In this document: positions 8,011 to 54,914 of the stretch, in pieces
Position numbering within the stretch: the first letter of the stretch is position 1
Layout of the letters: every line of letters starts with the position of its first letter
DNA from: Polytrichum commune
Taxonomy: Eukaryota; Streptophyta; Polytrichopsida; Polytrichales; Polytrichaceae
NCBI GenBank assembly: GCA_950295325.1
Contig: OX485806.1
Coordinates: forward strand, 43,829,169 to 43,893,168
DNA length: 64,000 bases
Reading direction: 5' to 3'
The notes under the pieces: generated by a model
What the model was told of the DNA's origin: nothing
The model's input: the letters and a program-made list of their open reading frames with translations, nothing else
The model's database searches: none
Translations under genes and position numbers: made by a program

Positions 8011-8080
8011 ATGCCAGAATCATTCACCATCCATACAACGCCAGATCGAATGCCTCGACGCTCGCGAGCGGGTTGAGCAG

Positions 8081-11959: not shown

Positions 11960-12294
11960 AGAAGGAAGAGAGTAGAATACTCATAATAACTCTAAATCTC
12001 TCTTCAAATACACACAATTAATCAAGTTATCTCTCACTCCACCATGGGAGAATCCAAAAGTGCAAGAGAGGGGAGAAGAACTCAAGATTTATTGCAAAAA
12101 CATGCAATCTACACCTCATACAAACTCTCTCTACACTCTCACTCACAAAACTTGACTTGGCAAGAATGGCAAGCCAAGGAGGAGGCTCCTCACTTAGGAG
12201 CCTCACTTTCCAAAACTAAGGTTCATCCATCCAACTCTAAATGGATGAAGCCCAATGGATAAGGTGCGGCCGCCGACGCCGCATACCGTGACAG
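11960..12294. repeat. 335-bp terminal block B2 of the gypsy element
   Basis: This is almost identical to 2153-2487. The block ends GCATACCGTGACA, so on the minus strand it starts TGTCACGG. It contains AATAAA-like minus-strand signals and two hairpins, one formed by GAGGCTCCT/AGGAGCCTC and one by TTCATCCAT/ATGGATGAA. These features fit an LTR terminus with a transcript-end structure. The sequence to its left (11641-11959) is not repeated at the other end. Confidence 0.65.
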
Positions 12295-18453: not shown

Positions 18454-18754
18454 TGTTGCAGATAAGAATCTAACTAGGCAACCCAAAATAGATCCAACTC
18501 TAATTAGGAGCCGCTGGTATTAAACACCGGGGTCCAGGGTCCGAGGTATGAGCGGGAAGACTTAACTAAGCCCACTTACCGAGGATTAGGAGGGAAGCCG
18601 CCACGTAGGAAGACTAAGCTGACAGCATCTATCGGTGTAGTAATTGCACCGAGAGTGTACTCATGTATATATAGCCCCCACATTTGGTTGAGGCTCATAA
18701 GTTTTTCTTACATCGTTATGCTGCCGCTTTGTCTATCTTATTAGTTACTTAACA
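18454..18754 (+). repeat. copia 5' LTR
   Basis: 301 bp with TG..CA ends and preceded by CTTTG. A TATA-like TGTATATATAG lies at about 18663-18673, so transcription would start just downstream. The primer-binding region begins right after the LTR at about 18755 (CGTTATTAGCACC), close to the TTATCAGCAC-type site of many plant copia elements. Confidence 0.75.
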
Positions 18755-19565
18755 CGTTATTAGCACCTTGCTCTAAGGCGCTTCTTCCATCCACTTACTC
18801 CTACTTTCTCGAAGTTCTAGTTCTCACTTCTGAAACTTATTTCCACGCAGAAAGGCTGTTCTCTTTTAGTCTTTGAAGCAACTGAGATTGAGAGTATACT
18901 TAGTCTTTTCGAAGGAGCTTGTACATCAGTCTGACTTCAACATGAGAACTCTGCACGACAACTTCGGAGCACATCAAACTACTTAGGATGCACTCCAGAA
19001 GCTTGACAGTCTCACCTGATTCATACTCAGGGAGTATCACTCTGATTTTCTTTAAGCTTTGTCTTGTTTTCTTCGGATAAATGTCTGATTTCACTTGAGA
19101 GTTGTCTTCAGTCCTTATTTTTCTTAGAAATATACTACCGAACTATAGCTCTTGCTCTTTTGAATATCTGATATATAGATTTACAAATCTGTTATAGAAC
19201 TAGAGAAAGGATCTGTATACATGTACATTAGCTCATAAACTAGGACCTGAACTTACAGTAGGATCAAATATAGATTAAAGGCGACGTCTGAGCCTTTCTC
19301 ATGCTGAAATACTGTCTGTAGTAACAGCCAAGTTACCCAGTCTGTATACTATCACAGATAGTACCAGCTGAACTTAGAACCAGGTCAGGTATAGATCAGA
19401 TACAAAGTAAGTAACTTCTGACGCCGATATACTACCTGATCTGACTAGACAGAAGCTTTAAGTGAACTCTGAAAGAAGTCAGTAGTGTTTTAATACCTTC
19501 ATACTGTCCAAAATATAGTTCAGCTACACTAAAACTTCTGATAAATACTACTATCTGTATACACA
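18755..19565 (+). other. copia leader between LTR and gag
   Basis: About 800 bp without a long open frame. It is made of many CTTCTGA/ACTATCTG-like phrases, including repeated CAGTCTGTATACT and ACAGATAGTA units around 19310-19440 and 19540-19565. It is the untranslated leader, possibly with the packaging signal. Confidence 0.5.
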
Positions 19566-23928: not shown

Positions 23929-23971
23929 AAGCTATTTTGTGAGCGTAAAGCGGTGACCGGTGACCGGTAAA
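23929..23971. repeat. left terminal inverted repeat with GCGGTGA motifs
   Basis: Pairs with 35745-35788 over ~42 bp with a few mismatches and a one-base gap. The inner half is a tandem of GCGGTGAC units. Arrays of this kind near transposon ends are usually transposase binding sites. The same core (GTGAGCGG) recurs inside the element at 32140-32210. Confidence 0.7.
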
Positions 23972-24385
23972 ATCCGAGATATTTTTATTAAATTGTAACT
24001 TTAAGCAGCAAGTTTATGGTATTTATGGACTAAATGTATTTTTAGTAAATTTTTTCTAAACGTAGTAAACATTGGGACCTTTGGCCGTGGACAATTAAGG
24101 GCTCAGTTACAGGAAAAAATGTAATTATATCAGTGACAAATCTGTTAAATGTGGCAAATTGAACATTTGGAACTAATATCAGTAATAAATAATTTATTGT
24201 CTCAAGTAAAAAACGTAATGTTTCAGTATAATGAGAATTAGTGGTACTTTAAAAAGGTCACGCAACTTTGGAACAGAGAAATACATGTGGTGCGTCAAAT
24301 GTATTGTAGTGGCCCTTTTAGTCTCACTACATCGTGATTATAACAAATCTTGCATACATATGTTTCTTTAAAGAAACAGAAAACT

Positions 24386-27300
24386 CTAAGAGTCAAGGTA
24401 CTTCAGTAACGCACCCTCCAAAACTCGCTTCACTTCGTTGAAGCTAAAACTAGCTGCATGAATGAACGTATTTGATTCTGAGTCCAAACCACAAACTACA
24501 GTTAATAAATAGTACAAATGCTTACAGTTGGCCCATTGACCCTGTTTTCCAATTTCTTTAGTCGCCATCTCCTTGAAGTTAGGACAAGTGCATGCTGGCA
24601 GATGCGAAATCGTCAAGTAGTATTGCTGAACCTTTTGGGGCGTGCCGGAATCCAATGAGACGATGCATCCTAAGGCAGGGGCTGGAAGCATGCACAAATT
24701 GTGCACTTTGGCATTCAGTGATAGGGCTGAGGCACAATTATTGGTGTGTTTTGTTGACGGGGCCTTCTTGTTGCGCCTAATCAACTTCCTTGAACGGCGG
24801 GTGGGAAACTCATCCGGATATGCAGGAGTCGTGTAGCTTGCTAAGTCCAAAGGTAACGGGTGGTCCTGAAAAAGTTTGAAAGGTGTCATCTCCTTCCGCT
24901 GGGGCAGTCTAAATCATGCGTTTTCTAAAGAGAGGATCTCTTTGCAGGTTAAGTTGGTCCCCAACTTAACCGGCCATACCTTCGGAATGTTCGGGACTGA
25001 GACCATCCATCTCATTTTTGTACCCTTAACGCATCTCTCAATGTCGTCACTGCAGAAAAAGAAGTCTTGAGGGTCCAATCTTTTCTTCCGATAGTTGTCC
25101 AGGAGGCCCGAGTAGGTGGGTGCAGCGGTGTTCTTCCCGTCTTGTACAATCCGAGCGACGTATTTTTTCTTGGTAATTGCTTGTAGAGCAAAACAAGCTT
25201 TCGCAGATGTCTTAGGCAACCGTGCGATGTGCCACTGGGCAGGGTTGCATAATGTCTCCTCAATCGCGGTGACGTGGTACCGATCCACCTGCTGCGGAGC
25301 GTCGTGTGTTGGAAGTTGCGGCTATTCTTCATTTGTAGTTGTGGGAGAATTTGGAGTTGTCGCAAGAGGTGGAGAATCGTTCAGTCGGACAGATCTGGTT
25401 TGGACGTGTGGTCGGGATATACTGATCTTGTTTGGCCTGTGAGATTCACGTTCGTCACCGAACGCAGTATTTGGTTTACGCTTCGGAGAAACAAATACCT
25501 CTTCCCCTTCAAGGTGGGGAGTCCTGGTGCACCACTCGTCACCGCTAGGCATCTTCAAGATGGCCTCCTGCAGCGGTTTCGAGTTTTCTATTTTTGCGGC
25601 TGACCTTTGAGCACGCCTCAGCTTCAATTCCTCCTTCGACGGTCCAGTTCCAGGGTTCTCTCCCTTCAGGAATTGGGAATATGCTGAGCACTGCATGAAA
25701 GCACTCACGAAGTCATCGACTATTGCCACATAAAGGTCGCTGCCTCGATCGCCAGATTGCTGCTTCCACTTGTTATGAATAGATTCAGCAAGGTTACAGG
25801 ATGGCATTTCCGCTAGTTCATCTTCACTTAGATCCTGCAATGAGAATACAGTCCGAAATTAGAATAATGGTGGAATCAATGTAGTTGAACTATAAAGATT
25901 GAATTATAGAGGAAATATAGAGGGAAGTATAGACTTACCAACTCCATAAAATCCACCCCATTGGCGGTAACGGAAATGCCAGAAGGCCAGCTAGAGCTCC
26001 AGTCGAGGTAGAGCTTGTTCAATTGTTGCACCGGATGACATCCACCATGCCCGAATTGCCAAATACTTTGTCTCGGCCTCCGCCATCGATTTTGCATTCT
26101 TGTATTGCTGGCATAGTATTCGATGTTGATATTGCAGGTCTTGACGGATATTGGCCTTGGTATGTTTCTCCAAGGACTGCGTCCAATGGAAAAGACAAGT
26201 CCTCTCTCTGTCCACCATCTTCTCAAACGCATCTCCACTTCCGTATATGATTCGAACAACATTCCAGTTGGCTTGGGCACTGTCGGCCATGAAACCTTTA
26301 AAATTTACTTTGTCCACTCCATGTTGAGCCATGAGAGCGTTCAGGTTCTTCCATACGACTGACTGGGCTGCAACATCTTCAAACTACATGTCGCATACTG
26401 CGATGGTCATGACACGGCAATATGTGGAATCGTACACATGGCAAGCCATTGTCGTTCACGACCTGACCCGTTTGACATGGTCAAACATTATCCAGGAGTT
26501 CTCCAGATCACCACCGGATTGCATTCGTTTGACCAGGTCGACTCCGCTGCCCGGTCCAACTTCAGACATCTTGAAGACAAAGACCTTGTCCATGTCCGCT
26601 CCTTGCCCTGGAAACCTATTCTACTGCACGAACTTCCAATTGCTAGCACCGCGTAACTTGGTAATATTGTCCATGACTCCAAAGCGATGGATAGTCCTGA
26701 ACGTGGTGACTGCGTTACGAATGTTGGGCGAGGTGAGGTGCTTACACCGATCGAAAATAACTTGCAACTCGTCCAGCTCCAAGATCTTCTGTGGTTCACC
26801 TTCTTTAGCAAGAAGGAGTGGGTCCAGTACTTCCTTTGCAGTTTCAAACACAATAGCTGAGCGAGTGGCTGATGGGGTGCGTTCGATTTGCTCCCCAATC
26901 AAGTTGTTTGTCAAATCGATAAAGTCCCGATGATCACCTGACTTGACGGGATGGTCATGAGATCCCAAATGCACACAAACCCTCGTCATGTGAGGTGTCG
27001 CAGTAACATAGTAGATCTTGGAAGGGTAAACAGCAACACAAGTGGGAGGGACATTACAAGATTTGCAAACAACGGTTGAACCAGTGGGAGGCTTGGACCC
27101 CACTTCAAACACTTTCTCAGATAATCCTTTCCACTCTGTTTCATTCACTTTGGAAGTCATGTGGTCTCGCTGAAGATACTCACAGGCATGATTGTCGCAA
27201 CGGAGGTGGCCCAAACAAGAAGATGTACGAAACAAAAGCTTCAGATCATTCTGTATATTGGATGTAATCGTGCGAGACCAAGCATGGCCATCGTACCTTC

Positions 27301-28123
27301 TATCCATTCCACGAAGCTGCTTGGCCTTTGTATTCTGGCCATGGTCACCTAAAGGTGGAAATTCGAAGATAACGTCCCCATCGTAACGAGGGGGAAGGTA
27401 ATCAACCTGCTGGAGTCTAATTGCATCAAAGTTAATTCGAGACAACACACTTTTGGACCGCTTACGAGCTCCAAGGCGCATCAATGAATGAATGATACTG
27501 ACAATAGGACTTGACACAACCTTGGACTGACCAGGATTACGAGACGGACTAACAAGAGGAGTTGTTTCCTTGCGAACTAATTGTGGAAACAGCGAAGCTT
27601 GGACTTTACTCTCTAATCTTAGAACTTCAACATCGCCGTCGGAATCATCAGTCAACTCATAAATTGTTTTTAGACCGGGCTCAATTTTGACCCTAGACAG
27701 CACCGGTCTTTCAATGCTAACAGTGGACGACTCCTTAGGTGTTAGAAGTTCAGTCGAACACTCTAACATAGACTCTGAGACTCCATATACACGATATTTT
27801 CCAGGCTTCAGCAACCAGAACGAACCGACGTCATTCTCTCCTCTAGTCTGACGAACTGCATGTGAAAGTAGACCAGTTTGATCGTCAAAAACTTCTCCTT
27901 CGACAAAGATAGTGACATCACGATACTGAAACCTCAAACTTAATGTTGTACAAGTGACTATAGCATGACCGTCTTCACCTAATGGAAAGAGGACCGGAAC
28001 AGAATGATGTTCAGCACAAAGCAGGGCCATAGTATTCCACAGGACTTTGAACAAAACAAGTGCTCTGAACATTGAAATGGCATGAATATATAACAAGCAA
28101 GAAATTACAGTGCAAACTGGCAA
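24386..28123 (-). pseudogene. MULE-like transposase with GCM/WRKY-type zinc cluster and SWIM finger
   Basis: The transposase cuts and rejoins the element ends. N-terminal part (26621-28123, 500 codons): a SUMO-like VKIEPG site, then a DGHxWSR...LGHLRC..CEYL region with later CKSC and HLGSHDHP ligands, resembling WRKY-GCM1 DNA-binding domains. The DDE core is spread over 25876-26490: MTIAVCDM (first Asp), FMADSAQANW (second), CLFHW, and IRAWWMSSGA before the helix with the expected Glu. An intron (25835-25938, GTAAGT..TGCAG) leads to MPSCNLAESIHNKW. The C-terminus has a SWIM finger, CTCPNF...CKHLYY. Breaks include TAG after CDM, TAG before the intron, a one-base shift in TTTT next to the intron, and stops near 25321 and 24911. 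The N-terminal start is uncertain. Confidence 0.75.
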
Positions 28124-28532
28124 TTTATGTCACAGTAAGCGGAATTTCAGAAGTTAATAGAGAGTCATGCAAAGTATGCTGAAAGACGGCTGAAAAACCA
28201 ATTTTAGATGTAGGTCCAAGATATGTAAGAAACCGATATCTATTTTAAACATAGTAGTCAATATAAATAAGGCTATAGATGTGGTCGTATCATATACACT
28301 CACAAGTTGTTATGTTTACCTGTTTTCAAATAGTAGAATCCAATAACATGCATACATTCTAAACATGATAGTAGCTATGGAATAAAAAAATTCCAAACAT
28401 TAGAATGCTACATTGTGATTAACGACAAAGACGCTTATGGGGCCCTTTGCCATTATTGTCACCGTCATTGTTATGACAATGGTCCAACCCTAAACTATGA
28501 ACTGCAGTGCATCCTGCTGAACCGAGTTTCTG
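28124..28532. other. spacer inside the MULE-like element
   Basis: AT-rich with no open frame of note. It may hold the transposase promoter or a 5' intron, because the first frame of the transposase opens without a clear start. Confidence 0.4.
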
Positions 28533-28842
28533 TCATTTGGGACGTGGGGGACGTAGAGATCTAGAGTACGTGCCCGGTTTAATAACACCTACTCTAGAAT
28601 AGGCATGAGTCTGTAAAGTAGATTTGTCCTCTATCAACGTTGCATCATCTGCCTGCAAAGATGGAGTCTGTGGATGTGGAGTGTGAACCACGAACGCCGG
28701 AGTAACTGAGCAGTCATGTGGGTTGGCAATCTTCATGTTGTTGACGTCTGCAAAACCATCGATGGACAACATGGTGTGAATTTGAGATGAACTAGGAGAA
28801 CCTAAAGGAGCAATGCTTGGGAGACTTGAGTCAGTACCCATT
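28533..28842 (-). CDS. small Ser/Pro-rich open frame of unknown function
   Basis: Starts at an ATG at about 28842 (MGTDSSLPS); the open frame extends further upstream without a stop. The product is rich in Ser, Pro and Thr and ends in RPPRPK, with no recognised domain. It lies upstream of the transposase in the same direction and could be an N-terminal exon of it or a separate accessory protein. Splice sites joining the two were not established. Confidence 0.35.
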
Positions 28843-30149
28843 GGAGAATAATATGATGAGATGACATGAAGGAATGGGTACAAGTAATCGGGTAATATAT
28901 ACACATAGGGTAGACACCAATGCTCGAATCTATGAGAACTTGTTACATCAATTAATAATCAACATTTATTTATGTAAATTCAGGACAAGTTGTTTCATCA
29001 AGGATTAGAATGTACTACCACAATAGCCACCAAATATCTGACATGACATATCTTGATTAGACTTTAGCGCCGCCTTTTTAAGTGTATTATTGCAGTGAGG
29101 ATTAACCCTGCATTAATTTAAGAAACCGTAGATTAATTTTCTAAAACAAATGATTGCACATGGATGTTAATTATGACAGACTAGACAATGATATATAAGA
29201 TCTGTTTGATTCAGTGTTGGTAGAGATGATCACTAGGTCGAGAGCGAGAGCAGATCAAGAAGTTAGGAGGATTATTGAAAAACAGAGGCGTATTGAGAGA
29301 AGGCAAAGGTTAGAATCAAGAGAGAGCATAGGAACGCCGTACAACTTGCAGACAACAATGGGTAGAAGAGGGGTTAATTCTTCCAAGGGTACATGTAGAG
29401 GTTCAAAAGGGGAAAAGACGTTTGATGTCGCAACGGTAGCTCCCATCGTTTTATTTCCTGTATCAGAGGAAGACAACCAAGTTGACAAAGGGGGCAGTGA
29501 GGTGTTGTTTATCTGCATTTCTAATGATATTATTTTCTTTGCAATCGTAATGTTAACCACTCTCACGGATAGTTAGAACAATTGAGACCCATTTGCTTCC
29601 CTTTATGTAGTTTTTTTTATCTTTGGTGATGGAATGTAACTAGGATTTGGCTTGGGCATCTGGAACAGGGAGTGACGCAGACACAGCTTCAACCCGGGGC
29701 AGCCTCGAGTGCCTCAACATCAAATCATAGTGAGCAGCAGGTTTGTGAAGAATGTTTTCAATTGGTGACTTTTAGGGTTTTGGGTTTAGGGTAATGTTTA
29801 TTTCAAATGCCAACAATTTATTAGGCCAACTTCTTAGCTAATGAGGACATGACATATCCACTTAACAGAGCCTTGGAGATTTTGATGGGGACGCTGAGGT
29901 TGCTGAGTTAAGCCTAGGAAAATTTGATCGCAACGTTGATGTGGTAGATCTTTGCAAAGGGAGCATGGATAATGAGGAGAGGCACTTCGGGGAAGAGGTA
30001 GGCTTTCCCACATTCCCACACCCCGTAGGGTTCGAAGATCGAAGGTGTGACCTAAAATTGTACTATCAGACCCGAGAGAGACTTTCTGAGCTTGTTTATC
30101 CATATCGGTGCCGAGGGGGACATTTGAGGAATCCAAGTCAATTCGGTGG

Positions 30150-33100
30150 TCTGAAATGGGCGAAGTAGGCTTATTTTGCATGTTTCCGAGTTAGAAATTA
30201 GGGGTCTGAATCATATGTGAGGCAGTTAGATTGAAATTCATGTGGGTGTCTCGGTCCCGAGATAGCTACTCGGAGGGGTTCTGAAATGGTCTGAAATTGT
30301 CATATTAAGCTTAGTATGCGTGTTTCTTACTTAGAAAGTAGGGGTCTGAATCAAATGTGGGGCAATTAGATTGAACTTCATGTGGGTGTCTCGATCCCAA
30401 GATAGTTACTGGGAGGGGTATGAGGTGGTTTGAAATGGTCTCATTAAGCTTAGTTTACATGTTTCTGAGTTAGAGATTAGGGGTCTTAGGTGGTCTGAAA
30501 TGGTCTGGAATGGTCCGATTAAGCTTAGTTTGCATGTTATTTAGTTAGATAGTAGGGTCTGAATCATATGTGGGGCGGTTAGATTGAACTTCATTTAGGT
30601 GTCTCAGTCCCGAGATAGCTACTGGGAGGGGTATTAGGTGGTTAGGGATGGTTCTGAGTTAGAGATTAAGGGTCTTAGGTGGTCTGAAATGGTCTGGAAT
30701 GGTCCGATTAAGCTTAGTTTGCATGTTACTTAGTTAGATAGTAGGGGTCTGAATCATATGTGGGACAGTTAGATTGAACTTCATTTGGGTGTCTCGGTCC
30801 CGAGATAGCTACTGGGAGGGGTATGAGGTGGTTTGAAATGGTCTCATTAAGCTTAGTTTGCATGTTTCTGAGTTAGAGATTAGGGGTCTTAGGTGGTCTT
30901 AAATTGTCTGAAATAGTCATATTAAGCTTAGTTTGCATGTTACTTAGTTAGATAGTAGGGGTCTGAATCATATGTGAGGCAGTTAGATTGAACTTCATTT
31001 GGGTGTCTCGGTCCTGAGACAGCTGCAAGGAGGGGTCTTAGGGGGTTAGAAATGGTCTGATTAAGCTCAGTTTGCATGTTTCTGAGTTAGAGATTAGGGG
31101 TGTGAATCATATGTGGGGCAGTTAGATTGAACTTCATTTGGGTGTCTCGGTCCCGAGACAGCTGCAAAGAGGGGTATTAGGTGGTTAGAAATGGTCATAT
31201 TAAGCTTAGTTTGCATGTTTTTGAGTTAGAAATTAGGGGTCTTAGGTGGTCTGAAATGGTTTGGAATGGTCCGATTAAGCTTAGTTTGCATGTTACTTAG
31301 TTAGATAGTAGGGGTCTGAATCATATATAAGGCAGTTAGATTGAACTTCATTTGGGTGTCTCGGTGCCGAGATAAGTACTGGGAGGGGTATTAAGTGGTT
31401 AGAAATGGTCATATTAAGCTTAGTTTGCATGTTTCTGAGTTAGAAATTAGGGGTCTTAGGTGGTCTGAAATGGTATGAAATGGTCACATTAAGCTTAGTT
31501 TGCATGTTTGTGAGTTAGAGATTAGGGGTCTGAATCATATGTGGGGCAGTTAGATTGAATTTCATTTGGGTGTCTCGGTGCCGAGATAGCTATTGGGAGC
31601 AATGAACGGGTAGTGCCGGCAGTTAGTTACGAGCTAGCCGGTTGATTTTGAGAATTTCCGAATGCAATTGGAAAGTTTAGGCAGCGGTTCCGGAAGAAAA
31701 TGAAGGTTGACGGAAAGGGCCGATTAGAAAAATAAAATGCCGGCATTTCGGCAAGCTCCCCTTGAGTATCCACGGCAAATTGCCGATTGAGAAAAAAATT
31801 TCATGGCGGGCAGCTGACCAAATATATATTTTTTAGGTAAGGATTTCAATACTATGCATAGTTGGAGACTATGCCTTGTTGGCTTGTGGTTTAGGCCCTT
31901 TAGGGTTAGAGTGGCTTGTGGTTTAGGGCTCCCCTTGCTTCCCTAAACCAGCTTTGACTCCGTAGTAGTGGAGGTTCCATTTTCGTTGTTGGTTTCACAA
32001 ACAAGCACCTGGACCCTAAATTTGTTGTTACTTCTGTGAGAGAGTTGTTGTGTCGTCGTAGTACCTGTGTGATTTGTGAGGGAGCCGGCCTCTTTGAGTT
32101 GTGAAATCTGTGAGTTGTGATACCTGTGAGTTGTGATACATGTGAGCGGAGAAACCTGTGTGAACGGCGAAGTCTGTGTGAGCGGAGAGGCGAAGTCTGT
32201 GAGCGGCGAACCCATAACCATTGCTTCAAACCCACCAGGCATCCTTAAAGAAAGAAAAAGATGGAGAAGGAGAAGAAGCTGGAGCGGGCGCGGGCCGGGC
32301 GAGGCGGTGCGGTTCGTTTCGTTTCGTTCTTCAGCTTTCTTTTTCTTTGAGTTGTGAGTATGAGTGTCTCGGGACCGAGACACTCTTTTTGGAACAAATT
32401 TGTGTATAAAAAGTGTATTCTGATATGAGGATAGATAGGTCTGAAATGATTTCCTAGTTGTGAGTATGAGTGTCTCGGGACCGAGACAGCTGCAAGGAGG
32501 GGTATTAGGTGGTTAGAAATGGTTTGATTAAGCTTAGTTTGCATGTTTCTGAGTTAGAGATTAGGGGTGTGAATCATATGTGGGGCAGTTAGTTTTAACT
32601 TCATTCGGGTGTCTCCGTCCCGAGACAGTTGCAAGGAGGGGTATTAGGTGGTTAGAAATTGTCATATTAAGCTTAGTTTGCAGGTTTGTGAGTTAGAAAT
32701 TAGGGGTCTTAGGTGGTCTGAAATGGTCATATTAAGCTTAGTTTGCATGTTTGTGAGTTAGAAAGTAGGGGTCTGAATCATATGTGAGGCAGTTAGATAG
32801 AACTTCATTTGGGTGTCTCGGTCTCGAGACAGCTGCAAGGAGGGGTATTAGGTGGTTAGAAATGGTCTGATTAAGCTCAGTTTGCATGTTTCTGAGTTAG
32901 AGATTAGGGGTCTAAATCATATGTGAGGCAGTTAGATTGAACTTCATTTGGGTGTCTCCGTGCCGAGATAGCTACTGGGAGGGGTATTAAGTGGTTAAAA
33001 ATTGTCATATTAAGCTTAGTTTGCAGGTTTGTGAGTTAGAAATTAGGGGTCTTAGGTGTTCTAAAATGGTTAGAAATGGTCTGATTAAGCTTAGTTTGCA

Positions 33101-33640
33101 TGTTTGTAAGTTAGAAAGTAGGGGTCTGAATCAAATGTGAGGCAGTTAGAATGAAATTCATTTGGGTGTCTCGGTGCCGTCATAGCTACTGGGAGGGATA
33201 TTAGGTGGTTAGGGATGGTCATATTAAGCTTAGTTTGCATGTTTATGAGTTATAAATTAGGGGTCTTAGGTGGTTTGAAATGGTTTGAACTGGTCATATT
33301 AAGCTTAGTTTGCATGTTTATGAGTTAGAGATTAGGGGTCTAAATCATATGTGAGGCAGTTAGATTGAACTTCATTTGGGTGTTTCCGTGCCGAGATAGC
33401 TACTGGGAGGGGTACTAGGTGGTTAGAAATTGTCATATTAAGCTTAGTTTGCAGGTTTGTGAGTTAGAAATTAAGGGTCTTAGGTGGTCTGAAATGGTTA
33501 GAAATGGTCTGATTAAGCTTAGTTTGCATGTTTGTAAGTTAGAAAGTAGGGGTCTGAATCATATGTGAGGCAGTTAGATTGAACTTTATTTGGGTGTCTC
33601 CGTGCCGAGATAGCTACTGGGAGGGGTATTAGATGTATTA
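30150..33640 (+). repeat. ~3.4-kb tandem array with a recurring palindrome
   Basis: About 16 imperfect units are built from two modules of ~80 and ~133 bp, giving a ~213-bp higher period (for example 30746, 30959; 31313, 31526; 33338, 33550). Each long module has GGGGTCTGAATCATATGTG, then TTCATTTGGGTGTCTCGGT, and nearly every one contains TCTCGG-N2-CCGAGA, an inverted repeat. The short module is AGCTTAGTTTGCATGTTT with GAGTTAGA. The array starts exactly where an open frame ends (GGTGGTCTGAAATGG at about 30148) and stops just before the first methylase exon. A different sequence interrupts it at 31600-32460. Confidence 0.85.
31600..32460 (+). other. non-repetitive insert within the tandem array
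   Basis: Holds AT- and GC-rich parts unlike the array. At 32100-32215 there is a run of GTGAGTTGTGA, then GTGAGCGGAGAA, GTGAACGGCGAAG, GTGAGCGGAGAGG and GTGAGCGGCGAA phrases. These echo the GAGCGGT motif of the terminal repeats. A perfect hairpin GTGTCTCGG/CCGAGACAC lies at about 32362-32381, where the array resumes. Short frames on both strands show no domain. It could be the methylase promoter or a captured fragment. Confidence 0.5.
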
Positions 33641-35286
33641 GCTACTTGGGTAGTGGGACTCGTTCCTGATGGCCAAAAAAATGGACCAGTAGATGTAGAT
33701 GTACTAATTTTTGGGTGTGTTTGTATACTGAGCAGCATTCCACTGGCAAAGTTCGATTGTATAAGGGGACTACCGGTGTCCAGCCCTGTTTGGACTTTAT
33801 ACTTGCTGATATCCCGGAGGGCTTGCCCGTTCCAGGGATCTCCAACCCACCAACGTCGATTCCTGCCTGGAATCAAGAAACTCACGAGTGGCTTCAGCCA
33901 ATCTTTGATTTTGCAAATAACCATTTGCATGATGACGGGGCCATCATTTTATTTCACCCTTTTCGAATGACTACAAAATCCATGATTCTTAGATATTGTG
34001 AGTGTTTCGGTTTTCAAGTTCGGAAGGAGTGGTGGGGTATGAACCGCCTTCATCTGATGTCCCCGATTAACTAGAGTGTCACTGTAAGTTAATTCTCTAA
34101 TTTAATTTACTCTTTATTTTTTAACAAATTTAAAACATTGTTTGACACGAATACTACATAATGATTTTCTCATATTTTTGGTTCATTGTTCTCAGTTGAC
34201 AAGTGCTGCTTGCAATGGCTGGACCCTAACTCAGTCCATAGGTCTTGGAATCTCATTGGCTGATGTGGAGTTCTGAACTGCTTTGTTCTGTATATTGAAC
34301 TCAGTAATTTTGGACCATGGCAGACTATGCGTTTTGGGATTACATTGGTGGTGAGGACCATGCCTGGCAAACCTGCTTCCAATTTCTCATTTCAGCCTGT
34401 CCCCGCTCTTGACCGACACGGGGTAGATGTATCAAGAGATGATATTCTACATAACCTCGTCTCTCGTGATGATCAGCTCATGAATGGACCCACGCCGTGG
34501 CGAGGTCCAAGAAAGAAGTCTACTCTTTTAATGCAGATGTTAATTCAGAGTTCTTCCTCTCCTGGGGATGTTGTTTTAGACTGCACTACTGCTACGGGTA
34601 TGTTAATTCAATCTGCCAACTCACATATTTAACTATTTGTTTTTAGTTCCATAGAAAGCACACTAATTTTATTGTCATTCTTTTTATTGTAGGTTCTTCC
34701 ATCCATGCGTCCCGCAACGTCCAGCGTCACATCGTGGCATTAGAGGCTGATGAGGCCATTTTCCATGCCTTGCTTAAACCCTTGATTCGTTCGAGTGTTG
34801 CTCCTGAGGTCACTTCTGGAGCAACGGCAACTAGTGAGGACCCGGAGGGCGATGTACTTGTGGTCCCGAGAATTGTGAAGAAGTCTCGATTCAGTAAGTG
34901 AGTTTGTTGAACATTCTCTCATACATTTGTTTTACTTTTGAGCGTCATTGTATCTAATATCGAGTCCTAAACATGGTACTTTTGGAATTTGCAGATATGG
35001 AGCAATGAGCTATCTTAGTCACCGCCCTTTCTTCTGTGACCCTACGTTTTATCCAAGTCCTCCAAAGTCTTGGCAACTCCCTTCATACGCAAATGACGTT
35101 GCCAATGAATTAGCGGAAGGTTCATATCGTACATTTAGACCTAAGAATTTGATGCTAAGAAGTATAGAGTATGTTGATTTAGAAGCTGTTGAGTCTGAGG
35201 ATGAAGGCTCCTCAGATGCAGATAGTACAGATTCTAAAGTCTCTGTAGCATTATCTGATAATTGTGATTTCGATTATATGACTTAG

Positions 35287-35744
35287 CTAGAATTTTGTGT
35301 CTTATTACTTACATAATAATATATTTTTGCATTTGATTGTTCAGTGTCCTTTTAGTGCGGGTATAATGGGAATAACTAAACCAAAAAATTAAAGATAAAA
35401 AATAAAAAATATCAATACATTTTTAAGAATTACAAAAAATAAGAAGATAGACTGGAAGAAGAATGGAAGAATAAATCCTAAACAAATAAATAACGGAAGA
35501 TGAATGGAAGAATAAAAAAATAAGAAGATAGAATGGAAGAAGAACGGAAGAATTAAAAAATTGCACTACTTATTTTGTATTATAATAATTACACCCTCGC
35601 ATTTTGAAATTAACCCCTAAACCTGAACCACGGATATAGGCATGATTTTTTCCCTAAAATATTGTATTATAGTCAAAACAACTATCAAAACCGCGGTCAT
35701 AGGATATGATTTAGTTGACAGCAATTTCCAAAATTACAGAAAAG
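35287..35744. other. subterminal AT-rich stretch of the MULE-like element
   Basis: No gene. Contains repeated GAAGA(A/T)(A/G)GAATGGAAGAA phrases and A-rich runs between the methylase stop and the right terminal repeat. Confidence 0.45.
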
Positions 35745-35788
35745 TTACCGCTCACCGCTCACCGCTCATCGCTCACTAAATAGCTTTT
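35745..35788. repeat. right terminal inverted repeat of the MULE-like element
   Basis: TTACCGCTCACCGCTCACCG followed by CTCATCGCTCACTAAATAGC is the inverse of the left end at 23929-23971. It abuts CGGGGTCCAGG of the copia 3' LTR, which corresponds to base ~75 of the intact 5' LTR. Confidence 0.7.
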
Positions 35789-36017
35789 CCCGGGGTCCAG
35801 GGTCCGAGGTATGAGTGGGAAGACTTAACTAAGCCCACTTATCGAGGATTAGGAGGGAAGCCGCCACGTAGGAAGACTAAGCTGACATCATCTATCGGTG
35901 TAGTAATTGCACCGAGAGTGTACTCATGTATATATAGCCCCCACATTTGGTTGAGGCTCATAAGTTTTTCTTACATCGTTATGCTGCCGCTTTGTCTATC
36001 TTATTAGTTATTTAACA
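35789..36017 (+). repeat. copia 3' LTR, 5'-truncated
   Basis: Matches 18528-18754 of the 5' LTR with four substitutions and ends TTAACA followed by the CTTTG duplication. The first ~74 bp are missing at the junction with the DNA transposon. Confidence 0.85.
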
Positions 36018-36022
36018 CTTTG

Positions 36023-36478: not shown

Positions 36479-36533
36479 CCGCGTCACTGAGGCGCAGATT
36501 AGGGAGTCGGGCCTGTGGCCGGCTCCCACAATC

Positions 36534-36951
36534 TGAGCCGTTCACTTCTAAACATTCATCCAACAGTTGATAATATCCTAGGTGGCAGGCGCCCATGGTC
36601 GGGCACGGGTCCCAAACGCAGGGGGGCATGCAAGGTTCGGCACGGGTCCCGGAACGCAGCTCCCCATTAAATGTGGTCCAAATTAATTGATGTCCAAATT
36701 AATTGATGTCAAGTGAGGAGAGGGCATTAGAATTAATTGATGTCCAAATTAATTGATGTCAAGTGATGAGGAGAGGGCATTAGAATTAATGGACATCAAT
36801 TAATTTGGACCACATTTAATGGGGAACTGCGTTCCGGGACCCGTGCCGGACCTTGCATGCCCCCCTGCGTTTGAGACCCGTGCCCGATCTGGGCGCCCAC
36901 CACCTAGGATATTATCAACCGTTGGATGAATGTTTAGAAGTGAATGGCTCA
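36534..36951. mobile_element. foldback element with ~161-bp arms
   Basis: The arms 36534-36695 and 36791-36951 are inverted copies at roughly 90 percent identity, beginning TGAGCC(G/A)TTCACTTCTAA and ending at AATTAATTGATGTCC. The loop holds tandem AAATTAATTGATGTC and a duplicated AGGAGAGGGCATTAGAATTAA. It starts one base after the hAT terminal repeat, so it may be either an inserted MITE or part of the hAT end. No target duplication was found. Confidence 0.75.
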
Positions 36952-37517
36952 TATTGGGGCCATGCACATGGAGATTTGGGGGCGCCAGCCTCCGCCTAGC
37001 GCAAGCCAGGTGGCCCCCCGTGGTTGGCCGTCAGGGGGGGCGGTCAGGCCCACAGGGAGCGGCTGACCCGCCAGGCTGGGCGGTCCCGCCCCCGGTCTCC
37101 GCCTAAAGCCCTCCGCCACCTGCCCCCCGCACCTACCCCTCCGCCACCTATCCCCTAGGCTGCGGGATGATTTTTTTTTTTACAGATATTTTATCTAAAA
37201 TAGTACAGCTAAGGGCGGTTACTTTTTGGTCCGCCCAAAGCTTAAATGGGTGAGGGAGGCCCAGCTCCTCACTCATATTTCATCGCTTGCAAATAGATAG
37301 ATAGATAGATAGAAACTCCGAAGTTTTTTTAGCAAGGTAGCTAGCTTGCAAATACAAGTCAATATGGCCACGAGGGAGGAGGATATGATTTTAGTTTTTT
37401 TGCCTTCATGGTGGTATTTCTCACATTTCCAATTTGTAGAGCGCGTGTGCGACCAACATTAGAATTGTTGGATGGAAGTGTAGGGGCTAGGTATTTTCCT
37501 CTAGTTGTTGTTTATTC
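36952..37517. other. GC-rich block and leader, probable left end of Harbinger element 1
   Basis: 36980-37160 is very GC-rich with CCGCC/CCTCCGCC phrases. A comparable GC-rich block at 42600-42740 in inverted sense shares GCCCTCCGCCACC. These may be degenerate terminal repeats of the Harbinger element, but exact ends and a TTA/TAA duplication were not found. A GATA repeat lies at 37295-37313. Confidence 0.4.
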
Positions 37518-38696
37518 GTGGATGCTACGTTTCCCGCAAATATTGTGGTGGGTAGAACCGAAACAAAATATGATGTTGTTGAGGGAGATGTGTGGCATAC
37601 CGCCCCGGATATGTTAGATCGGAAATACCGTATGACCTACAGGATGAATTTTCTAGCATTTGAACAGTTGGTTGCCGAACTAACACCATTTTTGCGTCCT
37701 ACTGCGCAGATGTTTGTCAGGCCTCCTATACCCATTAGGAAGCAAGTGTGTTTAGTTATATACCGATTAGCCCATGGTTTTTCTTGCAAAGCCATGAATA
37801 TGTTGTATGGTTGTGGGGAATCTACCATTAGAAAATATACCCTAATTGTTTGTAGACTATTGTCTTCTAGAAATGGATTATTTGGTGTATACATTCACGC
37901 GCCTAGAGGGCATAGAATAATGGATATTATCCGTAAGTTTAGGGATCTTACCGGCTTGCCCAATGTGGTGGGTGCTATAGATGGCACCCACATTCTTTTG
38001 TCTATTAGGCCTCAAAGGGGTTTAACCCCTATGCCTTGTGATTTTTTCAATAGAAAAAAGTTTCATAGTGTGTTATTGCAAGCAGTGTGCGATGCAGAGG
38101 GATTTTTTTGGAATGTGTGTGCATGGTAGCCCGGTGGAGTGCATGATGCCGCTCAGTTTGCTTGGTCCAAAATCTATACGCAATTGAGGACACGAGAGAT
38201 TTTACCGGAGCCAGTTTTGGAAATTGGTGGATTGGAGGTTCGACCGTATTTGTTGGGAGATTCCGCCTATCCTAGCCGTCCCTATCTCCTGAAGAATTTT
38301 AAGCCCAGTGTCAATAATCCTAGGTTTCAAGATAAAAGAAGATTTGATGAATCCTTGAATTCTGGCAGAGTTGTGATTGAACAAGCTTTTGGGGCATTGA
38401 AGAATCGATGGAGAATTTTGAAGAATTTGAATATGGGCGTAAATAAGGCCGCTACAATCACTCTTGCGTGTTGTGTTTTGTATAATTACTGCGAGATATT
38501 CTCGGAGCGAGTTCCATTGCTAGAGAATATAGATCAACGTGCCGATCATTTTGTTGGAGTACGTAGGGGACCTCTAAGAGTGCCTGGGGATGGTCGGGCT
38601 AGTAAAGTAGCGGGAGAACAAATGAGGGCAGCTGTCGCACACCTCTCCATGAGGAGTGGCCGAAACACCATGGGCACAAGGGGGACCCCGGAGTGA
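37518..38696 (+). pseudogene. PIF/Harbinger transposase (one stop)
   Basis: A DDE nuclease that excises and inserts the element. One frame of ~392 codons is interrupted only by TAG at 38127-38129 in the phrase VCAW.PGGVHDA, where CAG (Gln) would fit. Visible are an HTH-like region (IYRLAHGFSCKAMNMLYGCG), first Asp in VVGAIDGTHI, second in LLGDSAYPSRPY and Glu in VVIEQAFGALKNRWRIL. The first codon in the frame is GTG, so the true start is probably further upstream or in another exon. The partner gene is the trihelix-like frame at 41584-42369, as is usual in this superfamily. Confidence 0.82.
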
Positions 38697-41583: not shown

Positions 41584-42369
41584 CTACTTATTTAGATTTT
41601 GCAGCACACTTGCAAAAAGACCTGCCATCCTCTCCTGCGATGCTTGAGTTAGTTTAAACATCTCCAACTCCAACTGCCTATTGTCTTTCTGCATTTCAAC
41701 AGCCGCCTCTAACTTCAACTCCTCAATTCTACGGGTAGACTCACAAAACCGATCCAGAGAAGCTGCCATATCATTTGACAATCTTCTCTTCTTCACTGGT
41801 TGTCCCCGGACTCCAGGCAAGTTTGCGGCTCTAGTTCGAGGAGAATCCGGCTCCTCCTCTCCACCCTCTTGTGTTGCCTCTTCTTCTTGAGATGGAACTT
41901 GTTCTTCTACACCCACATGTTCGCCATTGTCCATCCCACCGGGCACACCATCCGCCTTGGCAGTACCAGAAAGTACCTCATCGATGGTGTTAAACCAAAT
42001 CCACTGAGATCCTGCATTGTCACCCGTGACATTGTGGAGTTTCTTTTCCTTGTGATAGTGTCGCTTGAGCTTGTCCCATTTGTCCCTAATTTGACTCCAA
42101 GTCCTCCTAGCCTCATTAGGATGCTCCCTCAAAATTTACTCCCTAATCCTCTCCCAATTTTCTTGCTTAAACACAGTTGTGCCAAAGCTCTCAATCCTCT
42201 CCTTCACCAAATCTATGAGAAATTTGGTGGCACCATGGGTCCACTCCCTAGCCGGAAGAGATGAGGAACCTAAACCCAAAATTTCGTCATTGGTAGGGAG
42301 AGATGGAGTCCCCAAAATTGGAGGGGATGCAAGTACTACTTTCCCCAAATAACCCAAGCCCTCCTTCAT
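41584..42369 (-). pseudogene. Harbinger-associated Myb/trihelix-like protein (one stop)
   Basis: In PIF/Harbinger elements a second protein with a Myb/SANT or trihelix domain helps the transposase enter the nucleus and bind the ends. The frame runs from ATG 42367-42369 with TAA at 42136-42138 between NWERIRE and ILREHPNEARRTW. The trihelix pattern is visible: spaced Trp in EWTHGATKFLIDL, ENWERIRE and RTWSQIRDKWDKLKRHYH. Then come an acidic Glu/Gln-rich linker, a basic KKRR signal and a C-terminal coiled-coil-like stretch (EELKLEAAVEMQKDNRQLEL). Confidence 0.72.
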
Positions 42370-43049: not shown

Positions 43050-45447
43050 TCAATCTAAGACTAGAATGCGACGGTCCCTCATATTTCTCCACTCTTGAAG
43101 AACAGCTTGCCAATCAATCTCATTAGCACCTAATCCACATAGGGATACACGCATCAATGCATCCAATGTGTTCAAACGCAAACGTGATCGTAATGCACTC
43201 TTCACTATATTCTGCTTGGAGAATCCTCTCTCGCATATTGCAGTACTGGCTGGTATGACAAGCACTTTTTGCCACAATTTGATGAGGTTTGGCCAATTTG
43301 TCTTCCATTCCAAAGTACAACCACATAGTGACCATGCCTCATGGATAGACTTCTGAGGACATTCATGTCGAATCGTCTCCACAAACTCCAACATCTCTGC
43401 TCTACATGCATCACGATCATTTTCAGAAGGTACAAACTTCTCCATCAACCTTTCCAACCATACATCTGTTGCTCTGGTCCTATCTTCTTCATCTGCAGGG
43501 TAGTACTTTGGGCTGAATAGCTTGGCTGCATTAAATATTGGCAGATCCGGAAATCGTTCATTCAACGCATCAATGATCTTTTGGACATACTCTGCTGCAA
43601 TCAACTTACATTCAAGCAGTGTTCCTGGCCTTTGATCTATAGGATCATTGCTGAGTGGATAAAACACCTCTGTTCCATCCTCATGAGCAAACAACAACCT
43701 CATATTTGGCACACTTTCCCTTAAAAACTTTCCCAAATTCTTAGCAGCCCTTCCAAAGGTTGGCCCTGTTCCACATAAGAAGAGTCTACGTAGAACTGAA
43801 ACACATACCTCAAGTCCTGATCCAATTGATGTGATGTCCAGAAGATCATATTGGAACTTCTTGTTCAACTTGTTTAGTTCACACAAAACATCAACGAGCA
43901 TGTGAAGAAGAAATTGGAACTGAAAAGATGTCATTTTCTGGTACCAGATTGGCTCTTCATCTTTGAATGCCTCTAAGATTGCAGGCATCACATGAAGAAG
44001 TCGCTCCATAACTTGACCACGTGATAGCCAACGTACTGAATGGAATCGTAATGGCATGTGGGAATCTCTATCAAACTCCTCTAACAATTCTTTTAGTTCT
44101 TTCCGTCGTATTGTGCTGCGCCCCATCCACTCATACACTTTGCTTGCAAATCGATCTAACACCAACAACTCAGGCAAATCTTTTGAAGCATCCGCTGCAG
44201 CAAGAGCTTCCCTGCAAATCACAATATATTCATCAAACAAACAAAACTATATATTTCTACAAAACAATATGTAAGGAGACTACTGCCCTACTATACCTGT
44301 GAGCAATGCAATGCACATTGACAAGTGAAGGCTGATCATTCCGAAGTCGAGTAGTAAACCCAATTCGAGAACCTATCATTGCGCTTGCTCCGTCAGTGGC
44401 CACCGCAACCAATTGATCTCGATTCCAATGAAGTTTGTTTAGGACCTCATCAACTGCAGTGTAAATACCCTCCCCTGTACCTGCTGTTATTGAAGATAAC
44501 TCCACAAACTGGGTGACAGGAACTCCACTTCCTTGGCCAGTCAAGTAACATACATACATAATCAAATGTTGCTCCAGTGTCCTGTCGGTTGATTCATCAA
44601 CCATTAATGAAAACCCCGGAAAACCACGAGATTGTGTCAAAAACTTGTCCCTAATGTGTTCAGAAATGGCCCATAAAAATTCCAATGCCGCATATTTAGA
44701 TGTGTAGGCACCATAGTCATCATTCACAGGCATCTCTGGTGTATGAAGATCTCTCAGCAATTGACAAGTATCTTCATAGCTCAATATTGACCTGTCCTTT
44801 TGAATTGTGAAATAGAGTATCTTCATGCAAGTAATAATTCTTGCATATTCTCTATTGATCATATTGTCCACATGACGATCCATTGGGGCTCCACCACGTC
44901 TTCTGTCTCGGGCTTCCCAAATAGGTATAGATAAAATGTGCTCATGACTTCTTTCATGATCCTTAACAGAAGAATATTGCAATGACCTGCAACCTATAGT
45001 AGCCCATCTACTTCGAGAATGCACATGAATACAAGATGCACATTTCATCAACCCTAAGTTGGGACCATCTGCAGGTCTTAAACGCATCAACCAAGGTCTT
45101 CCAGTCTTCCAATTGGCCTTGAAAACTCGTCTGTATTCCCTCCCTACATTTCTCTGTCGAGGGGCTTGTTCCCTTGGGGCAACAAGCTCAGGGTCATCAT
45201 GTTCATAACTAGAATCACCACTAGAGTGACCAGTAGTAGAGCTAGAACTTCTGGAAAGCCTAGCAATACGGGGTGCTTGAGGGACTCTAGGAGGAGGTGA
45301 TCCGAAACTGACAGATGGGGTTACAGCAACAAGAGATAAAGGTGGTGTTCTATTCATGTTTAGTGCAGGTGGACCACCAAACATGACATTGATATTAAGT
45401 TGGCGTGTTGACCTGCCTGATCCACTTGCACCACTACGAGAATTCAT
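43050..45447 (-). CDS. hAT transposase, two exons, apparently uninterrupted
   Basis: Exons are 44297-45447 and 43050-44211; the 85-bp intron 44212-44296 has GTATAG..TTTGCAG ends and joins AHR to EALAA in frame. The start ATG 45445-45447 gives MNSRSGASG. A Ser/Pro-rich N-terminus is followed by a zinc finger with CASC...GCRSL...HERSHEH ligands (TTF/BED-like). The catalytic core has MVDESTDRT (first Asp), VATDGASAMIG (second) and VHCIAHR. The C-terminal dimerisation domain reads VIPASTAICERGFSKQNIVKSALRSRL with the later LCG. Length ~770 residues is normal for hAT. No stop or frameshift was seen, so this gene may still make protein although its element is interrupted elsewhere. Confidence 0.88.
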
Positions 45448-46785
45448 TCTACAAACCACAAGTCCCTTAAATTAAATTAGTGGAAATTTTGATAAATGAA
45501 TCCTCACAAAAATTCATAAGTAGTTCGAAACATAATACAATGCACCAAAATTATAGTGTTTCATAATAAACTAGTGCAATATGCGAAGTCGGAGGTTAGT
45601 CCAAAACTTCATGAGCAGAGTTCACGATAATTAGTGCTCTAGTACTCTATTATTCTAAATTTTATTCACAATGCATAGTCTTCAAAATACACAAATCATG
45701 GATTTCTTTATATTGAAAATCTTGAAATAAAATAATTAAAATGACTGACATAGTGAAGAATAAACTTCAATTGAAATGATTACTTACTTCTGGACTTGTT
45801 TTCTGTAGCCTTAGCCTCCTCCACTGCTCACATAAATGTAATGACAAAACAACCCTGTTGTTCAAACACCACCACCAAAACAATCAGAAAATTACAGTAA
45901 ATTAAATCAATAAACAATCAATTATTTACCAAGAGTACAGTAAGGTAGAATACTATAACTGAACTGAAAAAGAATGCAAAGACTACAGTGAGAGACTAAA
46001 GAGATTGCTAGAGAAGAGAGTCTCACGAATATTATTTTTGTCTGGCTACTCCCCGACTGCTAGTTCCCGACACTCAAGAGAAGCTGCCAGTGGGAATGAG
46101 TTCCATGGGCCCGATTACAGAATGCATGCTTGCTACACTCTTACTATGAATTATTGACTTTCAAACGAAACAGTGACAATTGTCTGATAAATGACGTATA
46201 CGATCCAAATGTCCAACCTGTTGACCTCGAACAGATGGTCCAAACAATCCAACCCGGTTAAACCAGCTCCACGTACACGAGGATTAAACTGGTCGACAAG
46301 TCGGCAGAATGTCCTCCTCAACGTGAGTTCCCAGCTTGATCTTCGTGACTAGAATTCTCATCAGCGTCGCAGTAAGATTGAGTCTATAGCTTACCTGCAT
46401 TATTCTGAACGAAAACCCCTAGAGCATGGTTGCAGTGAGACTGCAGTACCTTAGAGAGACACTGAGAAAAGAGACTGAAAGTGAGTTAGAAGCCAGCTTA
46501 TGTAGTGTTGGGGCTGGTTGCTTCACCATTAGATTGCAGCAAAATGTTTAAATCTGAGTGGTAGCTTTGATTATCTAGATTATATTTTGGGAGCTGTCAT
46601 TTGACGGGCAAATATGGCTATATCTGTCAAGCGACGGATTCGAGGGTGGGGCTATCTGTCATGTGACTGGCTGGCTGCAAAGGTTGACTGTGATTGGCTG
46701 TCATTTGGCATGTGACGGGTGCAAAAAGCTTGGCATGTGACGGGTGCAAAAAGCAACCCTGATTCTGCCTCATGTGCGCGGGCCT
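45448..46785. other. hAT promoter side and right subterminal repeats
   Basis: Upstream of the transposase and AT-rich to about 46100. From 46590 to 46760 there are repeated TGTCA(N3)TGACGG phrases, and a 24-bp segment GGCATGTGACGGGTGC plus AAAAAGC occurs twice in tandem (about 46706-46755). No gene is seen. Confidence 0.55.
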
Positions 46786-51830: not shown

Positions 51831-53865
51831 TACTATATTTAAATCTTGACAAATCATGTGACCATGCGGTGTGTCTTTATGATTGTTTTGACTAGTGTGT
51901 GATGGATTTAACAATCTCTTTTCTATATTTTATCCACACCAGATGTCAGCTTACTACTCAGGATTTGATTGGCATATGACATGGCACCTCCGTTGTAGGG
52001 AAGTGCCAACTTATTATGAAATTTTAACCCTTCATTGCCCGAGTCTATTTGCATATGATCAATCATACATTGCATCCTTGATTTCACTATGTTTATGCAA
52101 GCTAAGCGTATCATTGCCTTATTCAGAACTTTTTATATCGTCTAATAATAGATGTAACATTGAAATGTAGTAGAACATGAAATTTATGAAACAAATCCAA
52201 AACTCATAAAAAGTTCACAGGCTATGTAACATATGTATAAGAATACTATGGTAGTGCTCAAAGTTAGCTATAGTCTCTAACTTTGGGAAATTGATAGTAA
52301 GATCATTTTTTGGGGATTTCTTGTAATTTTAGGGTGGAAGGGAAAGTAGAGTTCAAGAAGTTTACTTTATTAAGGTAAAAGCGCCTAATTCGGTAACATG
52401 CCCAATTTTGACACCTATTTTGGGTCCCTTCACATGCGGCTACCATCCATTAATTATTTAGCACCCTCATAAGATATTTGTCTTGTTAAAATCTATGATG
52501 GGTAAAGAGTCTTCACTAACAACCATTATATACCTACAAGCTAAATTTAGCCAAGTTGGTTTGGACTTCAATCACTTTTATAATGCAACTCCAATATTTT
52601 TTGACTTAAGTGGTTGTGGCCCTAATTGAATTGCGGTGGGCTTGAAATATATTGTGCCATGTGGGCTAGTGCAAAAGTGGGTGGTTGTGTTGATCAATTT
52701 GACTAAAATCTAATTTTACACGATCACCCAACCCCTGGTCATGCAATATACCATATATAATTGAATGTTAGATATTAGCAATATTTATGAAATGCTCTTC
52801 AATCTTATTATGCATCATGTAAACTTTTTGCAACACTTCATAAATACTAACTCACTAAAGTCATTTGCCAACCATTCCCAACATAATTCAAAGCCTATGT
52901 CTTTGAGGACATGGCCACCAGACTAAATGTGCATGAATGACATGAACAAATATCCACTATTGTTGAATACCATGCCTAACTTGCAAAAGTGGACAACAAT
53001 GATGCATATCTAGGTGATGTTAAGAAGTTTTGTATGTGAACATCACACCAATTAGGGGGCCGTTGTCAAAATCTTCCTTGGGAGACCACCATGGTAGTAA
53101 GAAAATGTTTAAGGCCAAATTCTTTTGACATTCAATACAAGTATGTGGTCAAGGCGTGTGGTAGTCTTTCAAGACATTGGAAGGAAAATAAAGAGTGAAT
53201 TAGACATTAGAGGGAATTGACATTTGTGAGAGAACATGGTGGATGATACATAAAATATTAAGATCCAGATTCATGACATACAAATAGAGGTACAAAACAA
53301 AAGTATGCAGTGATCAAGTCATGCATTAGGGGCTCATAGAAGCCTAGAAACTTCAAGATGTGATGCCCCTTGTCCTCATATTTTTTTATTGCAGCAATGT
53401 TTTGTAGTTTTTTTAGAAACTTTTTAGATCAACTACAGTCAATTAAAAAATTTCAAATTTCAATTGCTAGTCGACCAAAAATTTCCAATTTTTTTTTGGA
53501 ATATTAAATTTTGTTGGACGCAAGGTCTGATGCTCCATAATTTTTGGATTTTTTGGATCCCCCCCCTCCCTCTAGTTTTCTAGATGTTGATTGCTAGTAG
53601 TAGTCAATCAACTAGCCGACTACTCTAAATCAACAGCTCTTGGTTGATTGCAACAATCAATTTGGAGTCGTTGACCAACTAGTCAACTACTTTGTAGAAA
53701 ACTTTCAAAAATTCTCAATTTTTTTTTGGGATCATTAGATGTTGTAGCCAACAAGATTATGGTCCATAATTATTTTGATTTCTTTGATTTTGATTTCTTT
53801 TGTAGTTGACTACTATGTCAACTACTATTGTATTGTCGATCACCTTATCGATTGCAAAATAGCAG
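51831..53865. other. AT-rich spacer, no gene recognised
   Basis: Only frames under ~91 codons and no domains. At 53560-53880 there are several AGTCAACTAC/GTAGTTGAC copies in both directions, giving local inverted repeats. A C/T-rich run lies near 53560. Confidence 0.4.
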
Positions 53866-54914
53866 TTGATTAGACTATTGATCAAGGGATTGATTGCATC
53901 CGTTTACCACTAGGTAAATTGCCGGACTTACCACCCTATTGACATGACGTTTTTGAGTCCGGTATCACATTGTGATCACAAGACGTGAGGGACATCAATG
54001 TGAAGTCTTGGACACCATTAGTGAGGACCAAGGGCTATGCTCCAACTTTACACACGGGTAGATCACTTAGTGCTTTTAAAAAACGACGTGCGGCATAATA
54101 TAGAGAGGATTAAAATCATTTGAAATAAAAATTATAAAGGAATTCCAAATAATGCAGGGGCCATTAAATGTAGACAATCCCATTATAAGTAAGTTAGATG
54201 GACATAAAACGTGGGCCATTATTTTTTTGTAGAATTAATATAGGGGCTGAAGATAAGGATCCTAGAAGGTATGTTTAGTATGGTATGTAAACCGCTGCCG
54301 TTCTTCCCGTTTTGTGATGAGTTTGGGTCAACATTTTGTAAATCGCACGTTGTGTTTGTGAACACACGGACACTTTTCCTTTGTTTCCACCCTTACCCTA
54401 TTTTTGGTGTACTTGGGGTTATTTTGTACGCGCTGTAACATTGTGGACTCCACCCTAAATTGTAAATTCTAAACCCGCTTTACTATGCTTTGTGTTTTTG
54501 GTCACTTGCATTACAATGACCACTATGGTATTTGTGTTGGCATCTCCTATGTGTTTTCATCATAACAGTGTTTGCAATGGTATTACTTTGCTATGGTCTC
54601 CTATGTGTTTTCTTCATAACTTTGTTTGCAATGGTATTATTGTTTGCACCCTTCTTTGTTTCCATGCTTTCCCTCAACACTCATCAATTACGTTAGGAAG
54701 TAGATTAATTAGCTTTTATTACTTAAAAGAAATATAATGTACAAAAAATTGCACTGACTTGGATAATATAAGTAATGGAAGGGTGCAAACAAATGGGCCA
54801 TTTTTGAAATTTAAGTAATTATAGGGAGGCTTTAATTCAACCCCTGAAGGTAAATAGCCCCAAAACAAAAAACACCCAACCGCACGTGGTGCACAAAAAT
54901 GCCTTGGAGTGATC
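53866..54914. repeat. ~1.04-kb dispersed repeat, copy 2
   Basis: Near-identical to 591-1637 in the same orientation, with single-base changes and a few short indels. Sequence before and after differs from copy 1, so this is a discrete repeat unit and not part of a longer duplication. Confidence 0.8.

Follow-up and report, generated by a model that had tools for sequence, protein, structure and literature searches.

C5-methylases, Dam-like methylases and TET/JBP enzymes have all been described as cargo of transposons, as recounted in parts of PMC12730594 and PMC5890265, and a number of such systems provide points of comparison for a locus in the moss Polytrichum commune. The window analysed here, which is the whole stretch of 64,000 nucleotides from contig OX485806.1 (positions 43,829,169 to 43,893,168, forward strand), contains what is probably a dead DNA transposon of ~11.9 kb resembling the Mutator-like elements (MULEs), equipped with a transposase gene and, as an accessory, a gene of the amino-methyltransferase fold, at a site where a copia-like retrotransposon has its 3' end.

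The beta-class bacterial amino-methyltransferases of family PF01555 (CcrM, MboIIA, M.BceJIV, PvuII) deploy [DS]PP[YW] as motif IV, whereas the moss family has D-x-P-E; the moss gene differs further in being spliced and eukaryotic, with relatives that bear an extra N-terminal region. The N4CMT of bdelloid rotifers, as presented in sections of PMC8885841, has SPPY together with a chromodomain and contributes to transposon silencing, whereas the moss gene appears to be transposon-borne itself and is without SPPY. Marchantia DN4MT1, associated with N4-methylcytosine (4mC) in sperm, is likewise a bryophyte amino-methylase, and the available portions of PMC8566409 and PMC12344493, which cite Walker et al. 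for it, contain no description of it as transposon-borne. It may be kin to the moss family; no protein named DN4MT occurred among the matches listed for the methylase, and nothing on moss or Marchantia 4mC in PMC12695648 bears on the point.

Amino-type DNA methylases are also found on DIRS elements, in the form of Dam-like adenine methylases (PMC5890265, in part). However, these are tyrosine-recombinase retrotransposons, whereas the moss element looks like a DNA transposon with a PF01555-type methylase, and no Pfam match to a reverse transcriptase or tyrosine recombinase was obtained in the seven element open reading frames (ORFs) scanned. The giant-virus Mariner elements are also DNA transposons that combine a transposase with a methylase, but, according to the available text of PMC3627910, they belong to another superfamily, contain Methyltransf_26 and C5-type domains, and have viral hosts. 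The VANDAL elements, also plant MULEs, carry in VANC an accessory gene that acts on the DNA methylation of the element (PMC5735166; PMC13317346, in part), and fungal DNA transposons with a TET/JBP dioxygenase likewise carry an enzyme that modifies DNA, supposedly as a means of evading silencing; the latter is an oxidase rather than a methylase, and Mutator is not among the transposon groups named in the relevant part of PMC12730594. A preliminary description of the window had stated that no MULE-type element with an amino-methylase gene was known, and among the open-licence PMC papers listed in literature searches no plant DNA transposon or MULE with a gene of that fold was seen; the word methyltransferase occurs 0 times in the main texts of PMC6446971 and PMC13317346. 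The moss element may represent a new instance of a transposon with its own DNA-marking tool.

The methylase-like gene occupies positions 33736-35286 of the plus strand as four exons, separated by introns of 240, 95 and 97 bases, all of which are GT..AG and in phase. The first exon (33736..34083), delimited by splice sites and homology, encodes motif IV (LADIPEGLPVP), the second (34324..34597) the region of motif X followed by motif I (DCTTATG), and the third (34693..34897) the sequence that follows motif I (HIVALEAD); the last (34995..35286), acidic and TAG-terminated, was placed by frame and splice sites, no relative covering it in the alignments of relatives examined. The preliminary description had correctly recognised the phase-joining GT..AG introns and the motif order IV - X - I, but its exon start at 33670 has to be replaced by the splice acceptor before 33736, and it had overlooked an in-frame TAG at 34072-34074, towards the 3' end of exon 1; in the relatives compared this position is occupied by a sense codon. 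A Ceratodon purpureus protein (P0013) could be aligned continuously over introns 1 and 2, with 127 of 208 columns identical, and two predictions that read through intron 2 (P0003 and P0006) indicated an intron at the same place as in the window, so that introns 1 and 2 are common to relatives. Intron 3 is predicted from its splice sites and from the end points of the P0013 and P0006 alignments, both of which stop at its position.

The joined exon product matched PF01555 (N6_N4_Mtase) with an E value of 9.4e-10, scoring 39.2 bits where the cut-off is 26.7, while a rougher splice of the same exons gave 1.2e-9. A structure model of a relative, rather than of the window copy, displayed the beta-class S-adenosylmethionine (SAM) methyltransferase fold, and the profile search and model thus agree on the methylase fold proposed previously. 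A chance ORF was ruled out by the PF01555 match and the fold, and bacterial contamination by the introns at shared places and the Ceratodon relatives; a match to a bacterial contig has the appearance of a chance pattern match, with stops throughout and no methylase motif. Phage records yielded no match for one methylase relative (P0047), viral contigs no relatives of another (P0021) or of the transposase relative P0123, and GTDB contigs no relative of P0123.

One search returned 6 relatives of the methylase and another 131, of which the best 120 were listed; 122 sequences were used in all. An organism was named for three among the matches listed, and in each case (P0013, P0015, P0017) it was Ceratodon purpureus, with a tag in P0015 containing UG that may denote the U sex chromosome. 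The relatives are many and distinct, ~80-93% identical, and in a tree constructed from them, characterised by many shallow branches, the window copy is placed among 14 close rows. The shape of this tree fits, but does not prove, the spread of a gene by a transposon in one lineage, and the matches indicate that the accessory family has many different copies in moss-like DNA.

The first exon was matched by 66 relatives; the 63 of these that cover at least 81 residues were aligned with the window to give 64 rows for motif IV. Place 1 was D in 63 rows and N in 1, place 2 was I, L, M or Q in all 64, place 3 was P in 60, and place 4 was E in 61, K in 2 and M in 1; the canonical [DNS]PP[YFW] was present in 0 of the 64 rows. 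The equivalent alignment for motif I, in which 52 of the 59 relatives matching the second exon were retained and joined by the window (53 rows), gave D in 50/50, the last G in 48/48, and, at the middle place (n = 50), 31 A, 13 G, 4 S and 2 other residues. As aligned, the motif IV of the family reads D-[ILMQ]-P-E-[GN], and the SAM-side motif I appears still recognisable. The departures from the canonical motifs to which the preliminary description had drawn attention (ADIP and DCTTATG) are thus features of the family rather than damage to this copy; decay as their source was rejected on the family-wide motif IV alignment. The designation DNA methylase stands with respect to fold, whereas methylase activity is only putative, the canonical motif IV being absent from all aligned rows and the window copy having a stop codon.

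The family may comprise pseudo-enzymes, in which a methylase fold serves to bind SAM, DNA or a partner rather than to transfer methyl groups, as exemplified by METTL14 beside METTL3. This explanation, which is compatible with the gene belonging to the element, is judged to fall just short of an evenly balanced proposition. Neither the place-2 P nor the place-4 aromatic residue of motif IV was found in any row (0/64 in each case), and replacement of SPPY by APPA abolishes the activity of bdelloid N4CMT (PMC8885841, in part), but retention of the motif IV D (63/64) and P (60/64), together with that of D and the final G in motif I, exceeds the needs of a dead site. Methyl transfer by the family is considered about evenly poised, and the family-wide D-x-P-E offers a clean test of whether DPPY chemistry is replaceable or the fold has been turned to binding.

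The element itself is delimited by inverted terminal repeats, the left of which (42 bp, 23929..23970, plus strand) matches the reverse complement of the right (35745..35786, minus strand) at 36 of 42 positions. The pair was detected in a self search of the whole window (E 9e-5), and its score of 54 was not attained when 1972 pairs of 201-base stretches were drawn at random from the window, the best of these reaching 31. The resultant span (23929-35786) is 11,858 bases, and at 42 bp the repeats are at the short end of the range for MULEs. A piece of a copia-like long terminal repeat (LTR; 35790..36021, plus strand; 98% over 229 bases to 18527-18755) begins 4 bases away from the right end and forms an outer boundary outside the element, and the left end is just beyond the point where the copia-like body terminates on its 3' side (ORF to 23425; purine-rich stretch to ~23921). 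To judge from these junctions, it looks as if the element was inserted where the 3' LTR of the copia element starts.

Within these ends, and oriented in the opposite direction to the methylase exons, is a MULE-like transposase pseudogene (24386..28030, minus strand), consisting of a catalytic part (28030-25913) and a C-terminal part extending to 24386. Between 28030 and 25913 the relative P0123 aligned with it at 86% across 706 residues, the frame 28129-25991 contains 4 stops, and an intron probably lies near 25.94-25.86 kb; we take the ORFs onward to 24386 as part of the same gene. In 52 aligned transposase relatives, D534 was conserved in 50/52 and D583, C612 and H615 each in 52/52, and D-D-CxxH is the pattern of Mutator-type transposases. 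By eye, NLAES in the next ORF may supply the final E of D-D-CxxH-(E). A SWIM-like CxC..CxH was noted at ~24.5-24.6 kb, where a Pfam scan of the stretch was empty up to E 10; SWIM zinc fingers are common in MULEs, as tabulated in PMC6446971. The previous characterisation as a MULE-like element with its own transposase is thus favoured by the inverted ends, D-D-CxxH and the SWIM-like pattern, but not by Pfam models or a target-site duplication, and on sequence grounds both transposase and element are best termed MULE-like, short of a proven MULE. Similarly, the methylase exons and transposase do both lie within the terminal repeats, as previously stated, although the transposase is a pseudogene. 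Both genes of the element contain stop codons.

As a proxy for linkage of the two genes in other copies, relatives of the methylase (best 120 of 131) and of the transposase (best 120 of 230) were screened for contigs of equal size. A single size was shared among the matches listed, 18,151 bases, by P0021 (83% to the window methylase) and P0123 (87% to the window transposase, and the best transposase match among those listed). When the transposase sizes were jittered by no more than 10% in 20,000 trials, chance alone produced a shared size of 7 kb or above in 2%. Among the listed transposase relatives with contigs of at least 7 kb and at least 80% identity, 1 of 2 had a partner, P0123 doing so and P0125 (19,456 bases, 80%) not. 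Contigs below ~6-8 kb are too short for both genes at the spacing seen in the window, and many longer ones are also without a listed partner.

A number of these and other results weigh against the reading of the locus as a MULE-like transposon with a methylase-fold accessory gene. Equal contig size is no proof of one contig, the same trials gave a match at any size by chance in 55%, and a listed methylase partner of the same size was absent for 58 of the 59 transposase relatives listed with contigs of at least 7 kb. No target-site duplication of 8-11 bp was seen at the element junctions, and the empty site is not cleanly readable because the left junction is without the first copia LTR bases. 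No Pfam transposase model was matched at cut-off, with Transposase_mut detected in 2 of 52 relatives at a best E of 0.034. The catalytic aromatic residue of motif IV has been lost across the family, the Ceratodon relatives are recorded as plain hypothetical proteins, and the tree is based on 112 columns and leaves many forks unresolved. If the two genes were chance neighbours, the inverted ends would belong to another arrangement and the methylase exons to a separate insertion; this is distinctly improbable. The lack of a target-site duplication and an inverted repeat of only 42 bp would accord with such an origin, as would the repeat arrays between the genes and a window full of other transposons, but the right end abuts the copia LTR piece, the left end is just past the copia body, and a contig of the same size recurs in close relatives (P0021/P0123).

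With regard to the state of the window copy, a large N-terminal region precedes the methylase domain in relatives (P0002, P0003, P0007-P0014, P0047), and a tblastn search of 122 relatives against the window for the corresponding exon gave nothing outside 33.6-35.4 kb better than E 0.03. The copy is therefore without its start, or has one that is no longer recognisable, and with the stop codon as well it cannot make a full protein. Direct-repeat arrays (30141..33627; families D1 and D2; units spaced at 139, 75 and 214 bases; with a break at ~31.6-32.36 kb) constitute a higher-order minisatellite just upstream of the methylase exons, the expected place of the missing N-terminal exon.

A missing N-terminal exon and a stop could also be accounted for if a host methylase-like gene had been copied, in the style of a Pack-MULE, into one element lineage, there to decay unused. 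MULEs are described as catching host gene fragments in the part of PMC13317346 available, and the records that contain the named Ceratodon relatives are very long (20 and 112 Mb); however, many close yet differing relatives (~80-93%) retain the same unusual motifs, and reading into introns is also common to P0020 and P0112, which fits a kept gene travelling with the element. Capture of this kind is unlikely.

If the methylase-fold gene is indeed an accessory gene of the element, intact copies would presumably be transcribed, and the protein would bind SAM and act on or mark DNA at element copies, which would thereby escape host silencing. Such a service might be rendered either by methyl transfer or by binding alone, an anti-silencing role being suggested tentatively, as a possibility somewhat less probable than its alternatives. 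Protection from silencing is nevertheless the likeliest service because of the analogy with VANC of the VANDAL MULEs and with transposon-borne TET/JBP enzymes; VANC is not, to our knowledge, a methylase-fold protein. The fuller proposal, that transposons of the MULE-like kind in mosses encode a DNA writer of their own, with D-x-P-E amino-methyltransferases depositing 4mC or N6-methyladenine and so shielding copies from silencing based on 5-methylcytosine, is a long way from probable. Should intact copies work, mosses would provide a tractable system for asking whether a parasite marks its own DNA with a base little used by its host, and how such elements are related to the bryophyte 4mC enzymes.

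Elsewhere in the window, a gypsy-type retrotransposon (2153-12294, minus strand) is bounded by 335-base direct repeats (2153-2487/11960-12294, 95.5%). One of its ORFs (6615-7643) contains a C5-DNA-methylase domain (PF00145, E 1.2e-12) and is situated between a gag-like ORF (8897-9907, identified by eye, no Pfam match) and a reverse transcriptase ORF (4908-5852), an arrangement that recalls the DNMT-bearing gypsy elements of Klebsormidium mentioned in the available text of PMC5890265. With PF00145 in the gypsy element and PF01555 in the MULE-like element, the window therefore contains two methylase-bearing transposons whose enzymes differ in chemical type.

Further transposon-related features include a long inverted repeat at 36526-36959 (98 bases at 97%, 70 bases at 91%), apparently a foldback insert or one resembling a miniature inverted-repeat transposable element, and a PIF/Harbinger-type transposase (DDE_Tnp_4, one stop) at 37491-38696, with a Myb/SANT-like ORF, perhaps its partner, on the opposite strand at 41584-42135. 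A hAT-like element with Dimer_Tnp_hAT and a zinc-finger ORF is located at 43050-45471, and a second DDE_Tnp_4 transposase ORF at 55861-56856. Finally, a 1051-base direct repeat recurs ~53 kb apart (590-1634 / 53864-54914) at 96% identity.
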